NCBI GenBank assembly: GCA_016206805.1
Contig: JACQQX010000031.1
Span: 1-32,479, forward strand
Source of the DNA: Candidatus Omnitrophota bacterium
Lineage (GTDB): Bacteria > Omnitrophota > Gorgyraeia > 2-02-FULL-51-18
DNA: 32,479 nt
Direction of reading: 5' to 3'
Shown: positions 10,294-32,479 of the stretch, in pieces
Layout of the letters: each line of letters begins with the position of its first letter
How positions within the stretch are numbered: the first letter of the stretch is position 1
Made by a program: the position numbers and the translations under genes
The notes under the pieces: generated by a model
Database searches by the model: none
Seen by the model: the letters and a program-made list of their open reading frames with translations, nothing else
What the model was told of the DNA's origin: nothing

Positions 10294-10324
10294 GTTATAT
10301 TACTTATCTATAAGCAGCCCACTC

Positions 10325-10481
10325 TGCCCCTGGGTTTGGTTTGCTCATCTAGCGGACATGCGATTCCCCCTGCGCGGGAATCGCATTCGATGACAACGCG
10401 CGTGGCTGGCGCACTGCGTGCGCCAGACCATGCCCACGCCGTTGTCAACGCCGCCAGATGAGCAAACCAAACCCAGGGGCA
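10325..10481. repeat. Structured repeat element, copy 1 (three-way-junction fold)
   Basis: A 109-bp core (10349-10457) matches the copy at 32328-32436 with about 8 differences. The outer arms 10325-10350 and 10456-10481 are perfect 26-bp inverted repeats. Inside are hairpin GCGATTCCC/GGGAATCGC (10360-10368 with 10376-10384) and a long arm: TGACAACG/CGTTGTCA (10391-10398 with 10440-10447), GCGTGG/CCACGC (10400-10405 with 10434-10439), and a 9-bp terminal hairpin (10406-10414 with 10418-10426). A 7-nt bulge (ACCATGC, 10427-10433) is conserved. It lies between the 3' ends of two convergent genes and has no T-tract. No known family is recognised. Confidence 0.85.
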
Positions 10482-10518
10482 AAGCCAAGTATCCTTTGCC
10501 TCCGTCATGCCTAGGTAT

Positions 10519-10597
10519 GTCATTTCGAGCGAAGCGAGAAATCCTTCTCTTACAAGCAAAAGAAAGATCTCTCGTCGCTATCGCTCCTCGAGATGAC
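10519..10597. repeat. Inverted pair of GTCATTTCGAG-type dispersed repeat
   Basis: The left arm (10519-10543) begins GTCATTTCGAGCGAAGCGAG. The right arm (10566-10597) is the same motif inverted, with a few inserted bases, ending GAGATGAC. The same motif recurs at 30641-30675 and 30824-30883 and, in a variant, at 27464-27498. Confidence 0.8.
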
Positions 10598-10640
10598 AGA
10601 TGAATTCATAAGTAGGTGAAACTGAACAAAAACTAAGAAC

Positions 10641-30693: not shown

Positions 30694-30721
30694 ATTATAA
30701 CAAAGCAGGGAACAATCACAA
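30694..30721 (-). promoter_or_regulatory. Promoter of the PC4-membrane protein-ParA unit
   Basis: On the - strand TTGTGA (30721-30716) is followed 16 bp later by a perfect TATAAT (30699-30694). RNA would start near 30687, giving a leader of about 60 nt that contains the repeat at 30641-30675. Confidence 0.6.
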
Positions 30722-30735
30722 AGGAAATGTTAACC

Positions 30736-30831
30736 AATGTCATCTCGGTACCAATGTCATCTCGGTACCAATGCCATCTCGGCACCAATGTCATCTCGGT
30801 ACCAATGCCATCTCGGCACCAATGTCATCTC
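30736..30831. repeat. 17-bp tandem repeat array
   Basis: Five consecutive 17-bp units start at 30736, 30753, 30770, 30787 and 30804, in the order A A B A B. Unit A is AATGTCATCTCGGTACC; unit B has two T-to-C changes. The sixth unit (30821 on) runs into the dispersed repeat at 30824, so the array looks like an expansion of that repeat's end. Frames across it are not convincing genes. Confidence 0.85.
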
Positions 30832-30883
30832 GAGCGAAGCGAGAGATCTTTCATTCAGGATTTCTCACTTCGTTCGAAATGAC
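30824..30883. repeat. Inverted pair of GTCATYTCGARCGAAG repeat at the rmuC 3' end
   Basis: The left arm starts GTCATCTCGAGCGAAGCGAG (30824) and the right arm ends CGTTCGAAATGAC (30883); they pair along about 25 bp with a 10-nt loop. The right arm is inside the rmuC coding end and encodes its last ten residues. Confidence 0.85.
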
Positions 30884-32038
30884 ATTTTTTTTCGTATTCC
30901 CTATTTTTCTAATTTCTCCCTCGATGGGAATAGGCGCCGGGATGTCCTTGAATTGCCCGCCGAGGGATTTGGTTTTCTCCATCTGAGGCGTGACGCGTGT
31001 TTCCCAGGAGCCGATCGCGCTGTTCCAGCTGTCCTTGGCTTTCTGAATGGATGAGCCGACGCTTTGCATGTGTTCCATGAACTTGAAAAGCCGGTTGCCC
31101 AGCTCCTCCACGACGGTGGAAAGTTCGCGCGCGTTTTGGGCCAGCCGTTCCCGCTGCCAGCCGTGCCGGATGAGATAAACCAGCGGAAGAATGGTCATGG
31201 GGCTGGCCAGGATAACGCGCCGTGTATTGGCTTCCTGAAAAATAGAGGGGTTGGTGGCAAAGGCGGCGCGAATCGCGGCTTCGCTGGGAATAAACATGAT
31301 AACGAAAGGCACCTCCGGGTCTAATAACGACTGATATTCCTTACGGCCCAGCTTAATGAAGTTGTCGCGAATATTGGAAACCAGCTTCTCGTAATGCTCT
31401 TTTTGGATGGCCGGGTCATCGGTTTCTTGGGCTTGGAGGTACTCCCCCGCCACTTCTTTAGAGTCAACGATGAGGCGCTTGCCGCCGGGAAGCCGGATCA
31501 CAAAGTCCGGCCGCGAATCCGAATCAATGCCGTTGATGGTCACCTGCGTGTCAAAATCAATCCCCCGCACGAAGTCATTTTGTTCGAGGATTTCCTGAAG
31601 AACCCGCTCTCCCCATTTGCCGCGGATGCCCGAGCTTGTCGTGAGGGCGTTTTTAATCGAGGCGGCTTCGCGCTGGATGGATTGTCCGGCGTTCAACACT
31701 TGTTCGAGAGACTTGTCCAGCTTGCCATACAAAGCAAATCGCTCTTCTTCAAATTTTCTGACGATGCGCTGGGTGTCATCGAGCTTCGATTTCATTTCAG
31801 AGACCGAATGAACGATGGCCTGTTTGTGGGTATCCACGCTTTGTTCGGCTTCGGTGCGGACTTGCCTCAGATCCTTAATGGCGGTGGAAAGAAAAAGCTC
31901 GTTGGCGTTTTTTAAAGCGTCGGAGGCGAGGGACTTGAATTCGTGGGTGAGATGGCGGAACCGTCTCTGGCAAAAAAGATAACCCGCGAAGGCGCCGAGG
32001 ATTAAACCGATAAGCCCCGCCAGAAGAGCGGTGGTCAT
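30851..32038 (-). CDS. rmuC: DNA recombination protein RmuC
   Basis: This 395-residue protein has an N-terminal hydrophobic helix (about 3-22), a long coiled coil (about 30-130), and the RmuC nuclease-like domain (about 135-330) with GIRGKWGERVLQEILEQ, RPDFVIRLPGGKRLIVDSK and FVIMFIPSEAAIRAA. RmuC limits recombination at inverted repeats in bacteria where it has been studied. The C-terminus (VISNEVRNPE) is encoded by the dispersed repeat at 30824-30883, so the gene's original end has been replaced or extended. It follows rpsU by 8 bp and is probably read from the rpsU promoter. Confidence 0.93.
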   Translation of the reverse strand: MTTALLAGLIGLILGAFAGYLFCQRRFRHLTHEFKSLASDALKNANELFLSTAIKDLRQVRTEAEQSVDTHKQAIVHSVSEMKSKLDDTQRIVRKFEEERFALYGKLDKSLEQVLNAGQSIQREAASIKNALTTSSGIRGKWGERVLQEILEQNDFVRGIDFDTQVTINGIDSDSRPDFVIRLPGGKRLIVDSKEVAGEYLQAQETDDPAIQKEHYEKLVSNIRDNFIKLGRKEYQSLLDPEVPFVIMFIPSEAAIRAAFATNPSIFQEANTRRVILASPMTILPLVYLIRHGWQRERLAQNARELSTVVEELGNRLFKFMEHMQSVGSSIQKAKDSWNSAIGSWETRVTPQMEKTKSLGGQFKDIPAPIPIEGEIRKIGNTKKNVISNEVRNPE

Positions 32039-32259: not shown

Positions 32260-32307
32260 TTCGTATGAGTTCATCTTGAGTTCATGTTATGAATGCAATC
32301 GCCCGTT

Positions 32308-32457
32308 TGCTCCGGTAGGGCATCCTCCTGGCGGACATGCGATTCCCCCAGCGCGGGAATCGTACTCGATGACAACGTGCGTGGCTGGCGCGCGGCGCGC
32401 GCCAGACCATGCCCACGCCGTTGTCAACGCCGCCAGACAGGATACCCTACCGGAGCA
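32308..32457. repeat. Structured repeat element, copy 2
   Basis: The 109-bp core (32328-32436) matches copy 1 with about 8 substitutions and no indels. The outer arms (32308-32326 and 32439-32457) are complementary at 18 of 19 positions but unrelated in sequence to the copy 1 arms. The terminal hairpin of the long arm reads CTGGCGCGC/GCGCGCCAG where copy 1 has CTGGCGCAC/GTGCGCCAG, a compensated A-T to G-C change. It lies about 50 bp upstream of the rpsU -35 box. Confidence 0.85.
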
Positions 32458-32479
32458 CCGCATATCATCCCCTTATGTC

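Follow-up and report, generated by a model that had tools for sequence, protein, structure and literature searches.

The window analysed here (a stretch of 32,479 nucleotides) carries two copies of a palindromic element, both assigned to the minus strand. The first copy, of outer-stem class A, is located at 10322..10484 and is supported by 34-nt arms with 94% complementarity, a covariance model score of 184 bits and the strand tests given below, which mark the minus strand as the informative folded one. The second copy, of class B, lies at 32302..32462 and is supported by its fold and a score of 167 bits. Their common core of 110 nt (10349-10458 and 32328-32437) is of equal length in both and shows 93% identity, which bears out a preceding sequence-only reading that had described a repeated 109-bp core with about 93% identity. 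The element is, however, longer than that unit, and so is the inverted repeat that closes it: the left half of the outer arm P1 (10322..10355) pairs with the right half (10451..10484). Between them lie the hairpin P2 (10358..10386, minus strand), with 11 bp and a 7-nt loop, in which 7 of 11 pairs show double changes among 13 genomic copies, and the arm P3/P4 (10388..10450, minus strand) with a conserved internal loop, identified by folding and covariation.

Both window copies adopt the same branched hairpin, formed from a closing stem, a hairpin and a long bulged arm. This shared fold had been recognized earlier; the hairpin, then given as 9 bp, has 11 bp in copy 1 and 10 bp in copy 2. The DNA folds of the two copies reach z = -14.2 and -9.9, values attained by 0 of 200 shuffles, and the RNA fold of copy 2 has z = -9.1. 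The double change A-T to G-C proposed for the terminal arm is real (GCGCAC/GTGCGC versus GCGCGC/GCGCGC), but is only part of the evidence: copy 1 and copy 2 share no sequence in their outer arms, and still the two arms of each copy are complementary, CCCCTGGGTTTGGTTTGCTCAT pairing with its partner arm in copy 1 and GCTCCGGTAGGGCATCC with its own in copy 2. The unpaired ACCATGC (GCATGGT on the minus strand), located at 10427..10433 and 32406..32412, belongs to a bulge motif whose constant part, class-wide, is ACCNTGCCCGCTC. It had been called invariant, and is identical in the two window copies, whereas other copies in the genome vary (ACCGTGC in two copies; ACC.GGGCC in another class). At 10602..10618 the sequence GAATTCATAAGTAGGTG is, judging from the flanks, probably a leftover from the outer end of a partner element of class B/C; elsewhere such partners pair in inverted orientation with class A copies.

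In the genome of the window (a 1.39-Mb assembly), 19 core matches were obtained by BLAST and at least 27 copies by a covariance model of 13 copies, after removal of the antisense echoes of the palindrome; by their outer stem, these copies sort into three classes (A, B and C). Since many contigs begin or finish inside copies, this count is a minimum, and the element may thereby fragment metagenome assemblies. With at least 27 copies in one genome, chance is excluded. The covariance-model search proposed by the sequence-only reading yielded homologues in many genomes: the first model found them in 12 of 58 relatives (window genome not counted), and a second, core-only model matched 126 of 292 genomes belonging to the same class and, at E<=1e-6, 86 of 285 belonging to the phylum. 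Related genomes differ widely in copy number, with extremes of 0 and at least 25, values from the large scans being minima counted among the matches listed. A search of GTDB for an exact pattern of 25 fixed bases, with less than one chance match predicted there by an arithmetic estimate, gave at least 119 stretches from several phyla. According to the submitters' labels, in which binning errors are possible, Omnitrophota are the commonest, followed by Aminicenantes, Auribacterota, WOR-3, Ratteibacteria, 'Deltaproteobacteria', Actinomycetota and Patescibacteria. The core is thus found in many uncultured bacterial lineages. Viral contigs, scanned with one exact pattern, and plasmids and phages, searched with a single query each, gave no match.

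The family is absent from Rfam, in line with the earlier statement that it matches none of the riboswitch, REP, attC or terminator families: archetype copies gave nothing at E<=1 except a neighbouring tRNA, and the window copy gave only short-hairpin chance matches at E<=10, none of them credible. The open-licence literature on Omnitrophota repeats and dispersed RNA motifs held no description of the element, so that a repeat family present in several phyla appears here without a published account that we could find.

Members of the family are about 165-240 bp long and consist of a near-perfect inverted repeat around the conserved branched core. The shared parts are arranged successively as P1; P2 with ATTTCCCCNGCGNGGAAAT; GCTCG; P3; unpaired CTCGCTC; P4; unpaired ACCNTGCCCGCTCG; the other half of P3; ACG; and the other half of P1. 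The outer stem P1 is variable in sequence with its pairing kept. On the minus strand the conserved unpaired motifs are GAGCGGGCAUGG and, opposite to it, GAGCGAG. Copies of the window genome depart from CTCGCTC and carry GCGTGG at this place, paired with CCACGC. A pseudoknot between the P2 loop (CUCGCU) and GAGCGAG is possible; the pairing bases barely vary. GGCAUGG and CCUCGCUGG suggest an HDV-like ribozyme; this likeness was rejected as a coincidence, as the segment order does not fit and Rfam is silent. Unusual forms were also met: a class C copy of the window genome (L042, G000:C63:8907-9129) has its P2 hairpin enlarged by a long palindromic insertion of some 70 bases, one copy (L064, G011:C79) lacks the arm P3/P4 and keeps P1 and P2, and in two copies (L166 and L173) the conserved GCCCGCTCG motif is interrupted by a different repeat (CCTGCCTGCCTGCAGATAGG).

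Covariation was assessed at two levels. Among 13 copies of the window genome, 28 of 63 pairs have changed on both sides (99 cells, compared with 35.7 after shuffling), and G.U occurs in just four cells on the strand folded in the sequence-only reading. Among 63 distinct copies, double changes occur in 24 of 26 core pairs, with 427 cells against 134.6 in shuffled and at most 90 in slid controls; this alignment was fitted to the covariance model, so its counts are biased towards the model. Moreover, template switching at quasi-palindromes can also yield compensatory changes, which makes covariation alone weaker than it looks. The test of mispairs in the outer stem is independent of the model-fitted alignment, and its strand asymmetry is free of the weakness that template switching introduces.

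For this test the outer arms were aligned with a score that treats every mismatch alike. On the strand first read, the whole outer arms contain 111 A.C and 46 G.U mispairs; at P1 positions 9-20, next to the junction, the numbers are 76 and 7, with 26 genomes favouring the A.C excess and 2 the opposite (p 3e-6). The excess is gone farther out from the junction. An A.C mispair on that strand is a G.U pair on the other, which means that only the minus strand tolerates wobble. Folding energies also favour this strand, by a mean of 11 kcal/mol; the advantage is present in 92 of 95 copies, and in 43 of 46 genomes. The direction is unchanged when DNA energies are used (60 of 63 copies), and folding therefore does not distinguish RNA from single-stranded DNA. 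The asymmetry in P1 and the better folding together say that the functional folded form is that of the minus strand, be it RNA or single-stranded DNA; the informative strand is accordingly the reverse complement of the one folded at first. Five copies tested from the window genome have no mispairs at positions 9-20, so that the strand call there rests on folding energy and on the relatives. Here, wobble pairs confined to one strand distinguish a function of the single strand from mere maintenance of a palindrome. The earlier suggestion that folding is under selection is supported by the double changes in the core pairs and holds with three amendments, which concern the strand, the length and a resemblance to IS256 elements in one genome (G025).

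With respect to placement, the core begins a median of about 55 nt behind the preceding stop codon (simple ORF calls), and the neighbouring genes are varied and housekeeping. One copy (L053) is located directly behind a tRNA gene (Rfam tRNA match 1422-1494; core 1527-1641). At the one orthologous site examined, a copy in G093 behind a gene that we take from its sequence to be gapA is absent from the corresponding gap in the congener G043. In G025, 4 of 10 copies are flanked by perfect 9-bp repeats at near-constant offsets, a pattern shown by 0 of 90 mixed controls. The element ends in this genome are also similar to the terminal repeat carried by a resident transposase gene of the IS256 family (PF00872, 297 bits). 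Inverted doublets were found in G231 (several) and in the window genome (A + B/C pairs on C54 and C30). The copies of G231 have sharp ends, TTTAGCGGGTCC and ACCCGCTAAA; GTAG is present at one foot in some of them and absent from others. Insertion of the core into existing terminators was considered and rejected, since the stem is not followed by a T-run and the outer stems look homologous within lineages.

The explanation that we favour, and regard as reasonably probable, is a non-autonomous, REP/MITE-like mobile repeat family built around a strand-specific folded core, with ends and movers that differ by host. In the proposed sequence of events, a strand of the element would become single, and the minus-strand core would fold, either as RNA or as DNA in single-stranded form. 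The unpaired motifs would then be bound by a protein that the host or another transposon provides in trans, and a copy would be pasted elsewhere, usually just behind a gene. The dispersal, the presence or absence at an orthologous site, the strand-specific structure, the covariation and the inverted doublets of two genomes were all observed, as were the 9-bp target duplications and IS256-like ends of one genome. We infer that the folded core acts as the recognition signal and that different enzymes move the element in different hosts. The core motif and its strand offer a concrete handle for seeking the reader protein.

Several observations count against a mobile repeat. Target duplications were not seen in the window genome (G000), G093, G020, G117 or G076. 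Genes of the IS256 family (PF00872) are missing from the window genome and from most element-rich genomes, and IS256 as a general mover was rejected, as only G025 fits. PF01797 (Y1/RAYT) occurs in 24 of 26 genomes searched, both with and without the element, so an association with RAYT was likewise rejected; no RAYT gene adjoined a copy among the matches listed for both. Neither an autonomous version of the element nor a recurrent partner gene beside the copies was found. Finally, the conservation of unpaired motifs across very distant lineages is unusual for a passive MITE. A broader proposal, which we offer tentatively, is that uncultured bacteria harbour a previously undescribed and very widespread mobile nucleic-acid system. 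Its recognition unit would be a branched RNA or a folded single DNA strand, which a putative protein would have moved across several phyla while the end sequences were free to change.

The most serious rival, though a doubtful one, holds that the element is a functional structured RNA of the minus strand, either trans-acting or the RNA part of a ribonucleoprotein, which is multi-copy by chance and whose spread is secondary. It shares with the structured RNAs of Rfam a covarying three-way junction, conserved unpaired loop motifs and wobble pairs on one strand only, at about 7% in the inner P1 helix as in RNA helices, and it would account for the better folding of the minus strand. In contrast to these RNAs, it has no credible Rfam relative, is dispersed, and lies mostly antisense to genes: where the flanking genes are co-directional, the minus strand runs antisense to them 46 times against 17 (63 cases; p 3e-4; simple ORF calls). 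Inspection of the printed flanks by eye revealed neither a promoter-like sequence nor any other conservation beyond the stems, and the range in copy number between related genomes also speaks against this explanation.

It is improbable that the element is an ordinary MITE derived from an IS, with a passive central palindrome that template switching keeps perfect. The terminal repeats of G025, which resemble those of the resident IS256-family element, and its 9-bp duplications speak for this explanation, and such a derivation had been named beforehand as grounds for abandoning a structured function. In G025 the element indeed sits inside an apparent IS256-type miniature transposon, but this adds mobility and does not remove the conserved core, and these features were not seen in any other genome that was examined. 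In many lineages the same unpaired core motifs stand behind unrelated ends, the data already point to a core more conserved than the arms, and template switching predicts no strand asymmetry limited to the inner stem. We know of no MITEs that share a conserved branched core across lineages. Least probable of all is a double-stranded DNA site extruded as a protein-bound cruciform for chromosome organisation or replication, which would suit the intergenic placement and the fact that G.U is almost missing from P2 and from the four innermost pairs of P1, but which exposes both strands, so that G.U and A.C should be equally rare, and is already weakened by their roughly tenfold difference next to the junction.

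The mobile repeat family that we prefer can be compared with two known systems in which a folded strand is recognized. REP elements are recognized strand-specifically in single-stranded form with required unpaired bases (PMC8266576), REP/REPIN sequences form inverted doublets (PMC3116915), and repeats of the CGTC class often lack a flanking transposase (PMC3733652). The element resembles these RAYT (TnpA-REP) systems in being dispersed, intergenic, palindromic, strand-specific and arranged in inverted doublets. However, there are major differences: REP/REPIN units are single hairpins of 20-40 bp with a GTAG or CGTC tag, whereas the element is branched, 165-240 bp long and without a conserved tag at its foot (no conserved tetranucleotide was seen by eye outside P1 at the printed ends), and no flanking RAYT was seen among the matches listed. 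Its size, its branching and the lack of tag and flanking RAYT place it outside the REP/REPIN family. The integron attC site, a signal for recombination, is recognized in the form of a single folded strand that carries unpaired bases, and the element is similar in this respect. In contrast to attC, which keeps its outer boxes and varies inside, the element keeps the inside and varies the outer arms; by eye, the attC outer core sites (GTTRRRY / RYYYAAC) were not found, the outer arms differing between lineages. Its copies are scattered beside housekeeping genes and not in cassette arrays.

Other repeats were recorded as well. In G093 several copies of the three-way-junction element (L103-L110) are followed, to the right of the core, by another large palindromic repeat (GGCGGAACTTTCGGGCGATGCTGGAGCGACTTTATAAAATTTCGAT...), and the G043 site likewise lacks it. 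The window contains TCATTTCGAGCGAAGCGAGAAATC palindromic repeats at 10517-10547, 30822-30852 and 30857-30885, with similar ones beside several element copies elsewhere in the genome, and a tandem array at 30716-30849 with the 17-bp unit ACCAATGTCATCTCGGT.
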